This document shows positions 8,204 to 23,177 of a stretch of 64,000 nt of DNA, piece after piece. The notes beneath the pieces are model-generated. The model was given only the letters and a program-made list of their open reading frames with translations, ran no database searches and had not been told where the DNA came from. The translations under genes and the position numbers were made by a program. Source of the stretch: Candidatus Hydrogenedentota bacterium (GTDB lineage: Bacteria; Hydrogenedentota; Hydrogenedentia; Hydrogenedentales; JAGMZX01); contig JAKQEQ010000181.1 of the NCBI GenBank assembly GCA_029556545.1, positions 62,001-126,000 of the forward strand, in the 5' to 3' direction. Every line of letters starts with the position of its first letter. Within the stretch, counting starts at the first letter, position 1.

Positions 8204-8230
8204 GAGTCTCCGAACAGGAGGGTGTATTCC

Positions 8231-10777
8231 ATGAGAACCATCGCGCTATTCCTTCTCGTTGCGAGCCTGGTCGCGCCCGTCGCGCGCGCCGCAGATGTCA
8301 GCGCGGCCGTTCAGCCGCTCTTCCAGCGCATCTTCGGCGATGCGGTGCGTCTTGACCCGGAGATGCGCGCCAAGGTCCTCGCCGACGAACCCGGCAAGCG
8401 CCACTACGTCGATAAAGACGGCGACGGCCGCCCGGAGGAGGTGTGGTTCATCGATACGGAACCGCGGCACCCCGAGGCGTGGCGGCCCATACTCGTGCGC
8501 GCCATCGACGAGGACGGCGACCTCGCGATGGGCGGCGAACCGGACCTGGACAGCGATTTGTACGTCGCCGACTGGAAGGGCGACGGGATCGTGGACGCCG
8601 TGCTCGATTACACGGACCTGGACGGGGACAACGACGTGGATGAGATGGCGTTCTATTTCCCCGGGAAACCGGGCGGCGCGCGGGAAGACCAGATCATGGT
8701 GTGGTGGGGTCGGGACGAGGGCGACGACAACCTGCTCTGGTTCGACGTGGGCTACACGTACCGGCAGCCTTTGTGCCAGTACCGGACCCATTTCGGCGGC
8801 GATGAAATCTTTTGCGCCTTTACCATCAGTCTCGAAGACCCGGAGTGGGTCTGCCTCTGGGAGAACCCGTTCCTCTTCTACGATCACGACGGCGACGGGG
8901 TGACGGAGGAGGTGGTGCGCATCGAGGGCCGGAACGAGGCGCTCGCGAAGTTGCGCTACAGTTTCGACGCGGACAACGACGCCACCTTCGAGAACCCGCG
9001 CGATTTCGACGTCTCGATCAGCGCGCATGCGCCGGAAGGTCTGACCATCGACGAGCGGCTCATGGAGCACATCGCGTTGCGGGGCATCCCGACGGGGCCT
9101 TTTCTGATGTATCATCCGACCCCGCAATTCGCGCGCGAGACGCCCTGGGCCGTGCTGCTGCTGACGTGGGTCGAGAACGACCTCAACATCGACGGGGACA
9201 ACCTCAAGGACGGACGTTTCACGGACACGCAGGAACGGTGGGAAGGCGTAATCGCGAAAGGAAACGAATGGTTCCCGCAGATCGGCGGGCCGAGCTGCGG
9301 GCTGTACAACCGCCGCTATCAACTCTCCGAGAGCCCGCGCGGCACGATGCGGCTGTATTACGCGCCCACGGACCAGCGCCTGCACCTCTTCGGCGCGAAC
9401 CGCATGTGGCTCGCCGTCGACTTCGACTATGACCAGGTCGCCGACATGCGCTACGAGTACGAGGATGCCGACGGGGACGGCTATATCGATCATTGGGCGT
9501 TGGACCTCGACGGCGACGGCGTTCCGGAGGACACGTGGGGGGAGGGCGACACGCCCCGCTTCGACGTGCGCTATACCTTCGGCGAAGTCAACGCGATCAT
9601 GGAACCGCTGCTGGCCGAGACGCCGCCGCGCCTGTACGCGTTGACGCAGCGCCTGAAGCAGGCGCTGGCGAAGGCGGGCGGGGCGGAGGATGACCCGGTG
9701 CAGCGGCTGCTGGATTCAGCCTTTGACGCGCCGCACCTCGACAAGGACCTGCGGCGGCGGCTTGCGGAGAGCAACGAGGCGCTGCGGTACTATCTGGACC
9801 TGCTGAAGGACCGCCGGATTGTCGCGCTGAAGCGGGCCTATAACGCCCCGGACTTCTGGAAATCCTTTGACGCCTTCCGCGGCAACGGCGACCTCGAGGG
9901 GATGCAGGCGCTGATCAAGAAGGCATTCGGCCTCGGGGACGCGCCGCTGCCGCTCTTCGAGGCGCTGCGGGTCAACATGCGCGCCGCGCTGGCCGAGCCG
10001 CGCACGGCGTGGGCCGAGGACTGGGTCCCGCCGAATATCGGGTGGGAATCGGACCTGTGCGCCTACCGGGCGTACTGGGGCCAGTTCGATTTCTTCGGCA
10101 AGCACGGCAAGGGCCTGGTTCTCAGTACGTTCACGCAGGGATCGAGTTATCACGTCGAGCAGGATTGGGGCATGGACGCGCTGCACGTCGGCGCGTCGCC
10201 GGGAATTGGCGGTGTTACGCTGTACGTGAACGGCGCGGCCTATCCGGTTTACAGCCCGAACGGCGAAGGCGCCATTCGGTGGTCCAAACGCCTGATCGAG
10301 ATCACGAACGACATGGTCTCGATTGAACTAATGGCCGAGAACGTGGGGCCTGTCACAGCGCCGTATTCCGTGCGCTTCGCGTGTTCCGCCCTCGGCGGGC
10401 GGCGCGACTCAGCCATCGAGGTAACCGTGTCCGGCGGCGCGCCGGAGGACGCCATCGAACTGGGCATCGGACTAACGCGGCTCCGAGAGGAAAGTTTCGC
10501 CGTGGATACGAACATCGGCATCATGGCGAATTGGGGCATCCAGGACCCGGCCATTGGCACCATAGGGATGGGTGTGCTGTTTCCGAGGGAGCGCTACCTG
10601 CGTTGCGCGGGCGATGAGGACGAACATCAGGTCGTGCTGCGCATCGAGCGCGCCGTGCCGCTGCGCTACCACATCCAGGGCGACTGGCTGCGGGGCCGGC
10701 GCTTCAACCGCTGTCCGAACATCGACAATTGGATGCGCGACCTCCGGGCAACCGCCGAGACCATACGCGGAGAGTGA
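8231..10777 (+). CDS. Secreted DUF4861-type protein with calcium-type repeats
   Basis: 848 residues from the ATG at 8231, which has AGGAGG about 9 bases upstream. Residues 1-21 are a Sec signal. Residues about 45-440 contain many D-x-D-G-D segments (DKDGDGRPEE, DLDGDNDVDE, DHDGDGVTEE, DADGDGYIDHW, DLDGDGVPED) like EF-hand or thrombospondin type 3 calcium sites. A helical stretch follows (about 455-590). The last 260 residues resemble DUF4861: DFFGKHGKGLVLS, YHVEQDWGMDALHVG, then GIGGVTLY. DUF4861 proteins are commonly found in pectin and uronate-polysaccharide loci; their activity is not settled. A convergent heparinase II/III-type gene lies next to it, which fits that role. The DUF assignment is from memory of the motif and should be checked by profile search. 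Confidence 0.75.
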   Translation: MRTIALFLLVASLVAPVARAADVSAAVQPLFQRIFGDAVRLDPEMRAKVLADEPGKRHYVDKDGDGRPEEVWFIDTEPRHPEAWRPILVRAIDEDGDLAMGGEPDLDSDLYVADWKGDGIVDAVLDYTDLDGDNDVDEMAFYFPGKPGGAREDQIMVWWGRDEGDDNLLWFDVGYTYRQPLCQYRTHFGGDEIFCAFTISLEDPEWVCLWENPFLFYDHDGDGVTEEVVRIEGRNEALAKLRYSFDADNDATFENPRDFDVSISAHAPEGLTIDERLMEHIALRGIPTGPFLMYHPTPQFARETPWAVLLLTWVENDLNIDGDNLKDGRFTDTQERWEGVIAKGNEWFPQIGGPSCGLYNRRYQLSESPRGTMRLYYAPTDQRLHLFGANRMWLAVDFDYDQVADMRYEYEDADGDGYIDHWALDLDGDGVPEDTWGEGDTPRFDVRYTFGEVNAIMEPLLAETPPRLYALTQRLKQALAKAGGAEDDPVQRLLDSAFDAPHLDKDLRRRLAESNEALRYYLDLLKDRRIVALKRAYNAPDFWKSFDAFRGNGDLEGMQALIKKAFGLGDAPLPLFEALRVNMRAALAEPRTAWAEDWVPPNIGWESDLCAYRAYWGQFDFFGKHGKGLVLSTFTQGSSYHVEQDWGMDALHVGASPGIGGVTLYVNGAAYPVYSPNGEGAIRWSKRLIEITNDMVSIELMAENVGPVTAPYSVRFACSALGGRRDSAIEVTVSGGAPEDAIELGIGLTRLREESFAVDTNIGIMANWGIQDPAIGTIGMGVLFPRERYLRCAGDEDEHQVVLRIERAVPLRYHIQGDWLRGRRFNRCPNIDNWMRDLRATAETIRGE

Positions 10778-13633: not shown

Positions 13634-13979
13634 GGCTGCATCCTCCTATGATGTCTTCCCTCTCTCCGGGGAAGCGGGACAGGGTGAGGGCTGACCAACT
13701 GTTCTCTCGGGGGCAAGACGCCCACGCTCCTTTACCTTCCCACTTATAGGTCCCGCCGCAAGACGGATTCAAGGCGTGGTCGGACGATGGGGACAGTCCC
13801 GTCTCCCACGCGTAGCGCGTGGTCGCTTGGTACAGGCCCACTTTTTCTGGGAATGCGGCGGGCCGGGGCGTCGTTCTTCTCGGGAGAGGTACTTCGAGGT
13901 TGGACAAATGCGACGGCTGCTGACTAGGATTCCCCTTTTCCGCAGGCATTCCGATGCTGGAAGTATGAAAGGAAACGCC
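13634..13979. other. Divergent intergenic region with two degenerate repeat elements
   Basis: Lies between the lyase (leftward) and the Mrp-type gene (rightward). It holds a degenerate member of the CCCTCTCCC family (about 13660-13696, ending GGGTGAGGG) and a degenerate GGGGAC-family palindrome (13787-13836). A weak candidate promoter, TTGGAC (13900-13905) and TAGGAT (13925-13930) with a 19-base spacer, precedes the Mrp-type gene. An open frame runs through from 13776, but its sequence here is repeat-derived and I do not treat it as coding. Confidence 0.5.
13787..13836 (+). repeat. Degenerate GGGGAC-family palindromic element
   Basis: GGGGACAGTCCCGTCTCCC, then CGCG-TAGCG-CG and GGTCGCTTGGTACAGGCCCA match, with several differences, the right arm of the inverted pair at 62556-62609. 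It lies in non-coding DNA upstream of the Mrp-type gene. Confidence 0.6.
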
Positions 13980-15293
13980 ATGCCCGCCGAAAAGGAAGTG
14001 CTCGACGCGCTGCGGCATATCATCGACCCGGATCTGGGACGCGATATTGTGTCGCTCGGGTTCGTGAAAAACGTCCGGATTCAGGACGGGGATGTGGCCC
14101 TTACGCTCGAACTGACGACGCCGGCGTGTCCGGTGAAGGAGCGCTTCCGGGAAGAGGCGCGCAGCGCCGTGTCGCGACTGCCCGGCGTAAAGTCCGTGGA
14201 CGTCACGCTGACCGCGATGGCGTCGCGGCGGCCTCAGAAGCCCAGCGTGAACCTGCTCGACAATGTGGACACCATTATCGCCGTGTCGTCGTGCAAGGGC
14301 GGCGTCGGCAAGTCCACGATAGCGGGGCATCTTGCCCGGGCGATCCAGCGGGAGGGCTACGCCGTGGGCGTGCTCGATACGGACATCTACGGGCCGTCGT
14401 TTCCGACCTTGTTCAACGTGCACAACCCGGACGTGGTCATGACGAACGAGTCGATCCTGCCTGTCGAGGTGGACGGCCTGAAGACGATGTCGCTCGGGTT
14501 TCTCATGGGCGACCGGCCGGCCGTGCTACGCGGCCCCATCGTGTCAAACTATACGATTCAGATGCTGCGCCAGACGGATTGGGGTAAGCTGGATTACCTG
14601 ATCATTGACTTGCCGCCGGGCACGGGTGACATCCAGCTCACGCTCGTGCAGCAGGCGTCGCTGGACGGCGCGATCATCGTGACCACGCCGCAGGCGTTGT
14701 CGCTGGTGGACGTGGCCCGCGGCATCCTCATGTTCGAGAAGGTCGAGGTGCCCGTGCTGGGCATCGTCGAGAACATGGCGTATTTTACGTGCGACGACTG
14801 CGGCAAGCGCCATTTCCCGTTCGGGAACAGCACCGCGACGCTGAAGACGCGGTTCGGACTGAACACGCTGGCGCAGTTACCGATCCTGCCGGGCGTTTCG
14901 AGTGTTGCGCACAGGCAGGACGGGGCCGATGTCCCGGCCTTCGCCCAGTTGGCCGAGAACCTGCACCGCGAAGTAGGCAAGCGCCGCGCCGCGGCGGGCG
15001 GGCGCCCGGAGGCGACGGTGGAGCCGGGCCACATCCGCGTGCGGTGGCCCGACGGCGTCGAGAGCCGCATCCCCAACGTGACCTTGCGCGCGTCGTGTCA
15101 GTGCGCGTTGTGCGTCAATGAATACACCGGCGGGGCGATTCTTGATCCGAAGACGATCCCGGGCGATCTCGAAGCCGAGAACGTCGAGCCGCTCGGCAAT
15201 TACGCCGTGTCGATCTCGTGGAGCGACGGCCACAGTTCGGGCATCTTCTCGTGGGACCACTTGCGCGCGGTCGCGGGACGCGGCGCGACCTGA
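13980..15293 (+). CDS. Mrp/NBP35-type iron-sulfur carrier ATPase fused to DUF59 and DUF971
   Basis: 437 residues from the ATG at 13980 (AAAGGA 7 bases upstream; an ATG at 13965 is also possible). Residues about 1-80 are a DUF59/MIP18-like domain (LDALRHIIDPDLGRDIVSLG). Residues about 95-340 are a Mrp-type P-loop ATPase with SCKGGVGKS (deviant Walker A, about 103-111), LDTDIYGPS and DLPPGTGDIQL, plus a CDDC pair near 270 that would bridge an Fe-S cluster between two subunits. Residues about 345-437 are a DUF971 domain (HIRVRWPDGVESRIPNVTLR, then CQCALCVNE). The protein probably carries and delivers Fe-S clusters in the cytoplasm. It appears monocistronic. The three-domain build is known from other bacteria. 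Confidence 0.9.
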   Translation: MPAEKEVLDALRHIIDPDLGRDIVSLGFVKNVRIQDGDVALTLELTTPACPVKERFREEARSAVSRLPGVKSVDVTLTAMASRRPQKPSVNLLDNVDTIIAVSSCKGGVGKSTIAGHLARAIQREGYAVGVLDTDIYGPSFPTLFNVHNPDVVMTNESILPVEVDGLKTMSLGFLMGDRPAVLRGPIVSNYTIQMLRQTDWGKLDYLIIDLPPGTGDIQLTLVQQASLDGAIIVTTPQALSLVDVARGILMFEKVEVPVLGIVENMAYFTCDDCGKRHFPFGNSTATLKTRFGLNTLAQLPILPGVSSVAHRQDGADVPAFAQLAENLHREVGKRRAAAGGRPEATVEPGHIRVRWPDGVESRIPNVTLRASCQCALCVNEYTGGAILDPKTIPGDLEAENVEPLGNYAVSISWSDGHSSGIFSWDHLRAVAGRGAT

Positions 15294-15427: not shown

Positions 15428-18217
15428 ATGGCCGCGCCTTATGAAATGCACGTTATCTCGAATACGCACTGGGACCGGGAATGGCTCTTCGATTTCCAGG
15501 AAACGCGCATGCTCCTGGTCGAAATGTTTGATAAGCTGATCGACATCCTCGACACGCGGCCAGAATACAAGGCGTTCCTACTGGACGGGCAGGTCATCCC
15601 CGTCGAGGACTACCTGGAAATCCGGCCGGAGCGCTGGGATCGGATCGTGGACCACGTGCGCGCGGGCCGGCTCCAGATTGGGCCGTGGTATACCGACCCC
15701 GAGTGCTTCTGCGTCGGGGGCGAGTCGCTCGTGCGCAACCTGTTGTACGGGCATCGCGTCGCGAACGCGCTGGGCGGCGTCATGAAAGTGGGCTATACGC
15801 CTTTTTCCTACGGGCAGAACTCGCAGATGCCCCAAATTTACGCGGGCTTCGGCATCGACACGATGCTGTTTTATCACGGCGTCTCCCACGAGGAGGTCCC
15901 GAACGAGTTCCTCTTCGAGGGTGCGGACGGCACGCGGATACTCGCGTCCCAGATGAGCAGCTTCGCGCGTTACAACTACTATTACCAGGTGTACCGGCGC
16001 GTGAAATACGGCGAGGAGCCCGACGACCGCATGTACGACTGGCGCAAGGGCGGCGCGCCGTTCCACCTGTGCTCGGAGAGCCGCGCGCCGGATCACCACA
16101 TCCTGCTCGATGCGCGGTGCGGCTTTGAGCGGGATCGCGTGGCGGCGTGCATCGCCCGGCTGCGCGAACTCGAACAGGGCGTGGCCACAACGCGGTATTT
16201 GTGCTTCATGATGGGGCACGACAGCAGCGGGCCGGACCTGCTGGAATTGGACATTCTCGAAGAGGCGGGCAAACACACGGGCGGCGAGGTCATCAAGCAC
16301 ACGAGCCTGCCTGAACACATGGCATGCGTGAAGAAGGCAGTGAAGGACCTTGTGGTGTTGAAGGGTGAGCGCCGCGTGCCGAAGCCCATGCCGCTTATTT
16401 ACCACCTCTACAGCGACGTGCTTTCGAGCCGCACGCGCATGAAGCGCCTCAACGCGCAGGCGGAAACGCTGCTCCAGCGGTGGGCCGAGCCGTTCGCGGC
16501 CGTCGCGTGGGCCTTGGGCGCGCCGTATCCCCAGGCGATGCTTGACCTCGCATGGAAGACGCTGCTGTCGTGTCACGCCCACGACAGCATCGCCGGCAGC
16601 GGCATCGACGAAATCGAGCGCGACATGAATTATCGCCTGCGGCAGGTGGTGAACATAGCGAAGGCGATCCAGCGACGCAGCCTCGCCTATCTTCAGTCGC
16701 GCATCGACAACGGCGGCATGGCGCCCGAGGACGTGTTGGTCACTGTCTTCAACGCGTCGCCGCGGGCGCGCGGCGAAGTTGTCACGGCGGTGATTGACGT
16801 GCCCGAGCATCTGGCGATTCACGAATTCGGCCTGGTGGATGCCGCGAGCGGCGCGCCGGTCATGGTGCAGGGCCGCACGCGCAAGCCGCATCACGCCATT
16901 GTCAATCACGAGGGCGACGCGCCCGCCATGATGCGCGTCCAGCGCTTCACGGTCCACTTCGAGGCGCAAGACGTGCCGGGATTGGGCTACCGGACCTATC
17001 ACCTGGACCCAAAGGGCGCGTTCGCGCGGGGCGGCCTCTCCAGCGGCGGCAACGGCATGGAGAACGAACATCTCGTTGCGCGAGTTGCGCCGGACGGCAC
17101 ACTGAGCGTCACGCACAAGGCGACGGGCGTCACGTTCGACGGACTGAACCAGTTCGAGGATGGCGGCGAGGCGGGCATGGCATGGATGCACCTGACGCCC
17201 GGCGAGGACCGCGTCGTCAACAGCCGGGGCTGTCCCGTCACGATTGCGCTGGAGGAAGACGGACCGCTCCTCACACGCTATCGGGTCGATTGTCACATGA
17301 CCATACCCGCGCGGCTCGACGAGAACGGCGGCGATGCGTGGAAGCGGCTGGACGGCGTCGGCAACAGCGCGCACCGCTCCGAAGAGACCCGGCCGCTTGT
17401 GATCCATTCGTTCATCACACTGCGCAAGGGGGCACGGGCGCTCGACGTGCTTACGCGCTTCGACAACGCCGCCGATTCGCACCGCCTCCGCGCGTTGTTT
17501 CCGACCGGTCGGGCCGCGACGGTCTGCCATGCCGAGAGCGCCTTCGACGTGGTGGAACGGGAGATCGTTTTCGGGCCCGAGAGCCCGTGGCGGGGCAGCA
17601 CGGGCGTGACGTTCCCGATGCAACGTTTCGTGGACGTGAGCGATGACAAGGCGGGGCTCGCGGTGATCAACGATGGGCTTCGCGAATATGAAGTAACGCA
17701 GGGTCCCGAGCGCGCCATCGCCGTGACCTTGATGCGCGCCTATGAACTCAGTCTGACGACGGTAAGCAAGCGCTGGGACATCCATCCCGAAATGCGCCTA
17801 TCCCAATGCCCGGGGGTGCACGAGTTCCGATTTCTCGTCTACCCCCATGCGGGCCGTTGGGACAGCGCCGACGTCTACGGCGAGGTCGAGCGCCTTGTGG
17901 CGCCGCTTGAGCCGGCGCAGGCGGGCCCGCACGGCGGCGATTTGCCCCAGTGCTTCGGATTCCTAAGCCTGCAAGGGGACAACGTGGTGATCAGCGCGGT
18001 GAAACGCACTGAGGACGGCAAGGGCCTGCTAGTTCGCCTGTTCAACCCGTCGTCCCAACCCCAGCAAGCAACGCTCACCCTCGCGCGCCCGCTCGCGTCC
18101 GCGAAGGTGGTTACCCTTGAAGAAGCGGCCGGCGCGGAGGTTCAGCACGACCGGTTTACCGTCTCTACGGATATCTCGGCCAAAGGGATTATTTCACCAG
18201 TATGTCGTTTCGAATAA
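15428..18217 (+). CDS. GH38 alpha-mannosidase-like protein with altered active site
   Basis: 929 residues, no signal peptide, so cytoplasmic; GGAGGGA lies just before the ATG. The order of parts fits GH38: NTHWDREW (about 12-19) with zinc ligands His14 and Asp16, WYTDPECFCVGGESLVRNLL (about 88-106), a helical middle domain with CHAHDSIAGSGIDE (zinc His, about 381), and C-terminal beta-sandwiches. The family removes alpha-mannose from glycans or mannosylglycerate. The nucleophile motif, normally PDSFG or DPFG, reads TPFSYG here (about 124-129), with Phe126 (codon TTT) where the catalytic and zinc-binding Asp should be. The enzyme may be inactive, use another residue, or belong to a divergent subfamily. 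The gene stands alone. Confidence 0.85.
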   Translation: MAAPYEMHVISNTHWDREWLFDFQETRMLLVEMFDKLIDILDTRPEYKAFLLDGQVIPVEDYLEIRPERWDRIVDHVRAGRLQIGPWYTDPECFCVGGESLVRNLLYGHRVANALGGVMKVGYTPFSYGQNSQMPQIYAGFGIDTMLFYHGVSHEEVPNEFLFEGADGTRILASQMSSFARYNYYYQVYRRVKYGEEPDDRMYDWRKGGAPFHLCSESRAPDHHILLDARCGFERDRVAACIARLRELEQGVATTRYLCFMMGHDSSGPDLLELDILEEAGKHTGGEVIKHTSLPEHMACVKKAVKDLVVLKGERRVPKPMPLIYHLYSDVLSSRTRMKRLNAQAETLLQRWAEPFAAVAWALGAPYPQAMLDLAWKTLLSCHAHDSIAGSGIDEIERDMNYRLRQVVNIAKAIQRRSLAYLQSRIDNGGMAPEDVLVTVFNASPRARGEVVTAVIDVPEHLAIHEFGLVDAASGAPVMVQGRTRKPHHAIVNHEGDAPAMMRVQRFTVHFEAQDVPGLGYRTYHLDPKGAFARGGLSSGGNGMENEHLVARVAPDGTLSVTHKATGVTFDGLNQFEDGGEAGMAWMHLTPGEDRVVNSRGCPVTIALEEDGPLLTRYRVDCHMTIPARLDENGGDAWKRLDGVGNSAHRSEETRPLVIHSFITLRKGARALDVLTRFDNAADSHRLRALFPTGRAATVCHAESAFDVVEREIVFGPESPWRGSTGVTFPMQRFVDVSDDKAGLAVINDGLREYEVTQGPERAIAVTLMRAYELSLTTVSKRWDIHPEMRLSQCPGVHEFRFLVYPHAGRWDSADVYGEVERLVAPLEPAQAGPHGGDLPQCFGFLSLQGDNVVISAVKRTEDGKGLLVRLFNPSSQPQQATLTLARPLASAKVVTLEEAAGAEVQHDRFTVSTDISAKGIISPVCRFE

Positions 18218-22104: not shown

Positions 22105-22277
22105 TCAAGGGAGCGCGAGTGCGAGTACGAACGTAGAGAGGACGGGGTTGCCAATGGCGTCGCGACGAACGTTGGCCGACAGTTGGCGCGGGCGCGCTCC
22201 AAAGGTATACTACGGCTGTTGTACGGAAATCGGGCGCGACTGTGCTCAGCTGCGCGAAACCGGGAGAGCAGGCATCC

Positions 22278-23177
22278 ATGAATACACACCATCTCAATCG
22301 CCGCGAGTTCTTGAAGGGAGTAGCCACGGCCTCCGCGGCCGTCGCGCTGGCCGCCGGGAGCGGCGCGGTCCAAGCCGCCGCGTACAAGCCATTGCTGAAA
22401 GGCGTGCAACTCGGGCGGCTGCCCGAGAACGTGCCGGACCTCGAACGGTTCCGCTACGCGAAGGAACTGGGCTTCGACGGCGTGGAAGCGCCGCCCATGG
22501 CGGACCTCGATCGCGCGAAGGCGCTGGGAGACGCCGCCCGCGAGGCCGGGACGCCCATCCACTCGATTATCTACGGCGGTTGGGGCGCGCCCATGTCCGA
22601 CCCGGACCCGGACAAGGTGGCGCGGGGCAAGGAGGAAATCCGGAACGCGTTGCGCTGCGCGCGGGCGATGGGCGCGGACACGGTGCTGCTTGTACCGGCG
22701 GTCGTGAACGAGCGCGTGCGCTATGGGGAAGCGTGGGAACGTTCGCAAGAGAATATCCGCGAACTGTTGCCCGTAGCCGAGGAATTGGGCGTGGTCATCG
22801 CCGTCGAGAACGTGTGGAACAAGTTCCTGCTCAGCCCGCTCGAATTCGCGCGTTACGTCGACGAATTCGAGAGTCCGTGGCTGCAAGCCTATTTCGACGT
22901 GGGCAACGTCGTCATATTCGGTTATCCGCAGGACTGGATTCGGACCCTGGGCCCGCGCATCCGCCGTCTCCACATCAAGGACTTCAAGCGGGACGGCTAC
23001 CAGTGGAGCAAGCTGCCCTACGAGGGCGACGTGGATTGGCCGGAGGTACGCAAGGCCATCGACGAAATCGGTTACGACGGGTGGGGCACCGAGGAGTTCC
23101 CCGGCGGCGACGAGGCGCACTTGCGGGAGCTTTCGCGGCGCATGACGCTGCTCGGCGAGGGCGCGCGCAAGGCGTGA
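22278..23177 (+). CDS. Tat-exported sugar phosphate isomerase/epimerase-like protein
   Basis: 299 residues from the ATG at 22278 (GGGAG upstream). A Tat signal comes first: LNRREFLKGVATASAAVALA. The mature part is an AP-endonuclease-2/xylose-isomerase-like TIM barrel (LKGVQLGRLPENVPDLERFR, LGFDGVEAPP, LGVVIAVENVWNKFLLSPLE, QAYFDVGNVVIFGY, IRRLHIKDFKRDGY, DGWGTEEFPGGDEAHL). The Glu, Asp, His and Glu of VENV, FDVGN, HIKD and EEF are the usual metal ligands of the family. These proteins isomerise or epimerise keto-sugars; many Planctomycete-type bacteria export such proteins. The substrate is not readable. No operon partner follows. Confidence 0.85.
   Translation: MNTHHLNRREFLKGVATASAAVALAAGSGAVQAAAYKPLLKGVQLGRLPENVPDLERFRYAKELGFDGVEAPPMADLDRAKALGDAAREAGTPIHSIIYGGWGAPMSDPDPDKVARGKEEIRNALRCARAMGADTVLLVPAVVNERVRYGEAWERSQENIRELLPVAEELGVVIAVENVWNKFLLSPLEFARYVDEFESPWLQAYFDVGNVVIFGYPQDWIRTLGPRIRRLHIKDFKRDGYQWSKLPYEGDVDWPEVRKAIDEIGYDGWGTEEFPGGDEAHLRELSRRMTLLGEGARKA

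Follow-up and report, generated by a model that had tools for sequence, protein, structure and literature searches.

A retaining glycosidase that loses its nucleophile is normally disabled, and a gene in a 64,000-nucleotide stretch of DNA from a Candidatus Hydrogenedentota bacterium (the whole stretch is called the window here) raises the question of what a GH38-fold protein without this residue can do. For the GH38 protein of S. pyogenes (SpGH38), PMC2815779 identifies D125 as the equivalent of the nucleophile and as one of four zinc ligands, together with H13, D15, and H351, and D232 as the equivalent of the acid/base; R149 is said there to keep D125 ionized. A first-pass annotation of the window had pointed to a TPFSYG sequence with a TTT-encoded Phe126 at the GH38 nucleophile position, had described the Asp of known GH38 enzymes as both nucleophile and zinc ligand, in agreement with SpGH38 D125, and had offered three explanations: an inactive lectin-like form, a shifted nucleophile, or a divergent subfamily with another mechanism. 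Our analysis supports this interpretation in part.

A GH38 fold with phenylalanine at the nucleophile position

Translation of positions 15428-18217 (+) gives MKVGYTPFSYGQNSQMPQIY, and a GGAGGG stretch lies close upstream of the gene's ATG. The protein contains four Pfam domains, Glyco_hydro_38N, Alpha-mann_mid, Glyco_hydro_38C, and Glyco_hydro38C2, whose scores (95.6, 58.4, 47.5, and 40.1 bits) each exceed the curated cut-off. An AlphaFold model (pLDDT 91.8, pTM 0.92) predicts the five-domain GH38 fold; its best structural matches in Foldseek are 5kbp and 2wyh, and VIA-align superposes it on 2wyh_B with a Z of 45.7 and an rmsd of 2.0 over 849 residues. SpGH38 (2wyh, 2wyi) shares this whole fold, and its zinc ligands and acid/base are conserved in the window protein, but D125 is replaced by Phe126 and R149 by His150. 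The GH38 protein of Enterococcus faecalis (3lvt, 5kbp), the best Foldseek match (TM 0.87/0.91), shares Glu160, Q133, and Q136 with the window protein and differs in retaining PDTFG with the catalytic Asp. The only curated NCBIfam match is the model of the mannosylglycerate hydrolase MngB (PRK09819), from which the window protein differs in the missing Asp and in a score of 429 bits, far under the 1138-bit equivalog cut-off.

Three alignments agree on the assignment of Phe126. Within the motif GYTPFSYGQ, it stands opposite the Asp of GYFPDTFG or YTPDQFG when the protein is aligned by phmmer to 3lvt, 5kbp, and 2wyh, and opposite the nucleophile Asp both in a mixed profile of 28 sequences aligned to the PDB and in an hhalign comparison of the Asp and non-Asp clades (probability 100). 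None of the three places a nearby Asp at this position, and the codon falls inside the region that had been flagged (15788-15816). F126, H14, and D16 were mapped to SpGH38 by the ungapped phmmer alignment, and H385 and D265 through the PDB profile alignment (Table 1). Where the retaining mechanism of GH38 calls for a nucleophile Asp and fourth zinc ligand, the window protein therefore has Phe. The remaining zinc ligands (H14, D16, and H385) are present, as the first-pass annotation had stated, and both the HxD and the HDS ligands of the zinc site appear to be retained.

A sequencing error or an isolated mutation was rejected as the cause: a copy from the same genus (L143) has TTC, a synonymous Phe codon, at codon 126, so that the difference is silent, and Phe is found in all 30 loci returned by a search of the phylum. 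The dN/dS between the window gene and the same-genus copy is 0.106 over 685 codons, a partial comparison in that the copy is broken by a run of N.

Table 1 Features of the GH38-fold gene in window coordinates
Feature	Position	Strand	Basis
GH38-fold protein of the non-Asp lineage	15428..18217	+	929-aa ORF, Pfam, AlphaFold, superposition on 2wyh_B
H14-W15-D16, two zinc ligands (SpGH38 H13, D15)	15467..15475	+	Conservation; zinc role from PMC2815779
Phe126, codon TTT, replacing the nucleophile/zinc-ligand Asp (SpGH38 D125)	15803..15805	+	Three alignments
Glu160, lineage-invariant candidate substitute acid	15905..15907	+	99/99 non-Asp genes
Arg181, invariant in the lineage's catalytic domain	15968..15970	+	99/99 non-Asp genes
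Insertion at about residues 197-232 with conserved Trp205	16016..16123	+	Alignment against Asp-type rows
Asp265, acid/base (SpGH38 D232)	16220..16222	+	99/99 non-Asp, 17/17 Asp-type
His385 (zinc ligand, SpGH38 H351) and Asp386 (SpGH38 D352)	16580..16585	+	97/97 covered non-Asp, 17/17 Asp-type

The substitution marks a widespread lineage

A scan of public genomes found 323 relatives, and the analysis used the 80 best; this limit, and the inclusion of NTHWDREW among the probes, favored near relatives. The nucleophile Asp is absent from all 80 matched genes of this best set (Phe 74, Asn 3, Thr 3), whose loci bear 17 phylum names, with 16 loci bearing none. One name is doubtful: the gene at a locus in a "Nitrospiraceae" bin (L044) has the same score and motifs as that at L020, in a genome assigned to the same order as the window, and the bin is probably misnamed. 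We therefore take the tally as about 16 phyla, a count that binning errors may lower. Within Hydrogenedentota, represented by 68 genomes from 44 genera, 54 genomes hold a relative at E <= 1e-30 and 49 at E <= 1e-100; residue 126 was read in the 30 returned loci, which include the window gene itself (L013).

Twenty weaker matches, fetched to find Asp-type relatives, yielded 15 genes with Asp and five without. The resulting alignment holds 116 distinct relatives: 99 non-Asp genes (F92, N3, T3, A1), two of which are fragments (the second ORFs of L112 and L071), and 17 Asp-type rows, nearly all from the window's phylum, with one (L100) from Sumerlaeota. Seven rows were excluded by hand (L001-L004, L012, and the second ORFs of L050 and L018): some are of other GH38 classes and read Asp, one is a fragment, and one could not be aligned. 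The window genome (G000, L001-L012) has 12 PF01074 matches, 11 of them above the cut-off, with at least three copies lacking the Asp (L006, the window gene, and L008) and five carrying it (L001-L005). In a quick tree of 78 rows, with the motif columns removed, a single switch between Asp and non-Asp suffices, against 18.0 in shuffles, and the branch that separates the two has modest support (SH-aLRT 76). On this tree, a single origin of the loss would be enough.

Variants were also seen within the lineage. The second ORF of L102 (1204-3957, Sumerlaeota) has Ala there and sits on a long branch, with a Phe-type copy in the same locus. A second non-Asp subgroup (L008, L138-L141), at about 35-37% identity to the window protein, carries the motif GYTSFGWGQ or GYTPFGWGQ and has GK[RK] in place of Y[HR]G at residues 149-151.

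Residues retained and residues gained

Although the nucleophile Asp is gone, the lineage still has three zinc ligands and the acid/base Asp, and its predicted fold is preserved. H14 and D16 are present in 99/99 non-Asp genes and in all 15 Asp-type rows that cover them, and Asp265, His385, and Asp386 are equally constant (Table 1). The lineage also has invariants of its own, and both sets are unchanged at identity cut-offs of 90% and 70%. At the position of Arg181, the 17 Asp-type rows have Ser (12), Ala (2), Gly (2), or Tyr (1). The PDB profile alignment ends at about residue 174, and Arg181 is not aligned to solved structures; its order in the sequence suggests that it lies close to the nucleophile site. 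Residues 197-211 of the insertion are gaps in all 17 Asp-type rows, bar one letter at 201, and the far end of the insertion was judged from five displayed Asp-type rows; position 205 is Trp in 96 of the non-Asp genes and Tyr in three. The place of SpGH38 R149 is Arg in 17/17 Asp-type rows and His (48), Arg (45), or Lys (6) in the lineage, a relaxation to be expected when there is no Asp to serve. Position 160 is never Glu in the Asp-type rows, which have His (8), Gln (4), or five other residues. We first favored Glu160 as a new nucleophile and dropped it as "new" since its equivalent in the Asp-containing 3lvt and 2wyh is also Glu in the PDB profile alignment.

In 87 of the 99 non-Asp genes, a Met sits within 20 residues upstream of HWD, which leaves no space for a signal peptide. 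The lineage's proteins are thus probably cytoplasmic, and the cytoplasm is where phosphorylases usually act.

Gene neighborhoods

Among the best 80 of the 323 relatives, a HAD gene of sugar-phosphate type accompanies the GH38 gene at 16 loci in seven named phyla: eight in Ignavibacteriota, two in Sumerlaeota, and one each in Delongbacteria, Bacteroidota, Lentisphaerota, Fidelibacterota, Bacillota, and an unassigned bin. Each of the 16 shares the strand of its GH38 gene; 15 are immediate neighbors, the other lies two ORFs off, and at nine loci the stop-to-stop frames of the two genes overlap. The HAD profile was derived from 13 of these neighbor genes themselves. Searched with short flanks, 16 Asp-type loci gave no HAD neighbor; among eight further non-Asp loci there was one (L137). 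Neither HAD, GH94, nor NanE (N-acetylmannosamine-6-phosphate epimerase) genes were found beside the window gene or at the 24 loci named Hydrogenedentota within the best 80. HAD is present in 15 of the 68 Hydrogenedentota genomes; of seven such places inspected, one (G053) lies near a GH38 relative, which is on the opposite strand. L137 and G053 are the only places in this phylum where HAD was seen near a non-Asp gene.

The neighbor HAD retains the catalytic HAD motifs, and 17 of its 26 sequence matches in the PDB are named beta-phosphoglucomutase, many of them variants of one protein. Read by eye, it presumably has no clear beta-phosphoglucomutase cap residues. Its identification as a proven beta-phosphoglucomutase was not upheld, because in structural matches its model (pLDDT 79) ties with MtlD, CbbY, and other phosphatases.

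Within the same best 80, a GH94 phosphorylase gene occurs at 10 loci (Ignavibacteriota, Delongbacteria, Bacteroidota, and Bacillota), NanE at six, an FAD oxidoreductase at six, and a GlmM-like mutase at five, NanE and the mutase only in Ignavibacteriota and Delongbacteria. The tally for NAGPA is eight, with at least one match (L117) made via the sorting tail alone, and a GlcNAc 2-epimerase family gene lies at L110. The window genome has one GH94 match (L156, G000:C159), inside an ORF of 3003 aa that is perhaps of the cyclic beta-1,2-glucan synthase type.

At L099, L101, L103, L109, L115, and L116 (Ignavibacteriota/Delongbacteria), a recurring cluster surrounds the non-Asp GH38 gene, drawing in a set that varies by locus on NanE, FAD oxidoreductase, GlmM-like mutase, HAD, GH94, and phosphodiester glycosidase genes. 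The HAD of this cluster has a large internal insertion.

The window gene's own neighbors (DUF4861, heparinase-like, Mrp-like, OmpA, and Polyketide_cyc2-like) were rejected as operon partners, as they did not recur as a set around the relatives; the largest neighbor cluster of close relatives, sulfatase, covers six loci, and the others mostly three to four. Just upstream of the GH38 gene, at 13977-15290 (+), lies a gene for a Mrp/NBP35-type P-loop protein with FeS_assembly_P at its front and a GBBH-like domain at its end; a homolog also stands upstream in the same genus (L143), about 2 kb off. The DUF4861 protein (8222-10777, +) has an N-terminal part full of DxDxDG-like repeats, and a TIM-barrel protein that resembles xylose isomerase and bears a TAT-like signal is encoded at 22242-23177 (+). 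Two inverted repeats in the region appear incidental.

Proposed catalysis without an enzyme nucleophile

With the remainder of their active site intact, the relatives probably cleave sugars by a different mechanism. An intact acid and metal site, a lost nucleophile, and purifying selection together suggest that the nucleophile comes from outside, and we consider it probable that the lineage is active without the Asp. The lost carboxylate, the gained Arg, the probable cytoplasmic site, and the sugar-phosphate partners suggest phosphate. As a tentative overall picture, a deep GH38-fold lineage, probably cytoplasmic, would have given up its covalent Asp nucleophile and yet be catalytic, with phosphate as the most likely nucleophile; inverting phosphorolysis itself, the phosphate-specific part, we hold to be rather doubtful.

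In such a mechanism, Asp265 would still protonate the leaving group, and the zinc site (H14, D16, H385, and perhaps a further ligand) would still hold the -1 sugar, while the anomeric carbon would be attacked by a nucleophile other than a protein side chain. Inorganic phosphate would take this role, bound by Arg181 at a site from which the negative charge of an Asp would repel it. The alpha-glycoside would be converted by inversion to a beta-sugar-1-phosphate, which the adjacent HAD enzyme, in part of the lineage, would isomerize or dephosphorylate. More specifically, although this is unlikely, the protein could be a GH38-derived phosphorylase that acts on alpha-mannosides or alpha-N-acetylmannosaminides to give beta-mannose-1-phosphate or beta-ManNAc-1-phosphate; in the Ignavibacteriota operons, the product would feed the HAD mutase, NanE, and GlcNAc-6-phosphate metabolism beside GH94 and its own alpha-phosphomutase.

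An inverting phosphorylase has one acid and no protein nucleophile, and F126 and D265 fit this pattern unless Glu160 has taken over. It should also be linked to a sugar-1-phosphate mutase, for which the candidate is the HAD neighbor, a mutase or phosphatase that is absent beside the window gene. The HAD, GH94, and NanE neighbors may be phosphate-active for reasons apart from the GH38 gene. GH65 is a different family from GH38, with a different fold, and the likeness proposed here would lie in the single acid without a protein nucleophile and in the handing of a beta-sugar-1-phosphate to a HAD enzyme. PMC4336185 and PMC3899277 describe inverting alpha-glycoside phosphorylases of GH65 that yield beta-Glc-1-P, which is used by beta-phosphoglucomutase. 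Certain GH3 N-acetylglucosaminidases are phosphorylases (a title cited in PMC8950772). There, too, an unusual active-site residue among hydrolases proved to be a sign of phosphorolysis; they differ in that the acid/base, not the nucleophile, is altered, and the family is unrelated.

It is possible, with a low probability, that the protein is instead a pseudoenzyme or lectin whose sugar pocket and zinc serve in binding or regulation, with no cleavage. The loss of the nucleophile and the tolerance of F, N, T, and A at its position are consistent with this, and there are structures of GH38 nucleophile mutants from Drosophila and Bifidobacterium in complex with sugars (3czn and 7ufu, by their titles). 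The acid/base D265 is nevertheless invariant, the lineage has acquired invariants of its own, and 49 of the 68 genomes of the phylum hold a relative at the stricter threshold (with residue 126 read in 30 loci). The invariance of D265, H14, D16, H385, and D386 exceeds the needs of a binding protein, so that the inactive lectin-like form of the first-pass annotation is left with a low probability.

A small chance also belongs to a hydrolase, substrate-assisted or phosphate-recognizing, in which the substrate supplies the nucleophile or the anion. Its substrate could be an alpha-N-acetylmannosaminide, with the 2-acetamido group trans to the leaving group, and the NanE, GlmM-like mutase, and GlcNAc 2-epimerase family genes are in keeping with this, but the first two are confined to Ignavibacteriota and Delongbacteria among the best 80 loci. 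It could also be a 6-phospho-alpha-mannoside bound by Arg181, with HAD as the phosphatase; the nearest curated model is that of MngB, which acts on a phosphorylated substrate, but eight proteins, including two of Asp type, score 351-473 bits against the PRK09819 cut-off of 1138. Least probable is a retaining alpha-mannosidase in which another carboxylate, most likely Glu160, is now the nucleophile or a zinc ligand: its invariance in the lineage and absence from the 17 Asp-type relatives speak for it, but the Glu of 3lvt and 2wyh makes it probably ancestral, and the text of PMC2815779 mentions neither E172 nor Glu172, the number derived for the SpGH38 equivalent.

The earlier idea of a shifted nucleophile accordingly gains no direct support, with no Asp aligning nearby and a Glu160 takeover improbable. 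Catalysis with an outside nucleophile corresponds to the divergent subfamily with another mechanism, the best fit of the three original options: the substitution is the hallmark of a large lineage under constraint, whose chemistry we infer.

Significance

The existence of a conserved lineage of GH38 proteins that lack the catalytic Asp is a confirmed observation for which no description was found in open-access PMC or NCBIfam. Among the open-access PMC papers listed, titles and abstract openings mention no GH38 members lacking the nucleophile, and NCBIfam has no curated family matching the non-Asp lineage. The phrase "alpha-mannoside phosphorylase" is absent from the open-access PMC papers searched, and open-access PMC gave nothing for "N-acetylmannosaminidase" with "glycoside hydrolase" or for "Hydrogenedentes" with "glycoside hydrolase" and "GH38".

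Family models would name such genes GH38 alpha-mannosidase or mannosylglycerate hydrolase. If these proteins do act without an enzyme nucleophile, family labels would mislead for genes across some sixteen phyla, and the lineage would be a natural experiment on how the chemistry of a retaining glycosidase can change. If they are phosphorylases, they would open a new route by which alpha-linked mannose or N-acetylmannosamine is salvaged, and they might serve as tools for synthesis.
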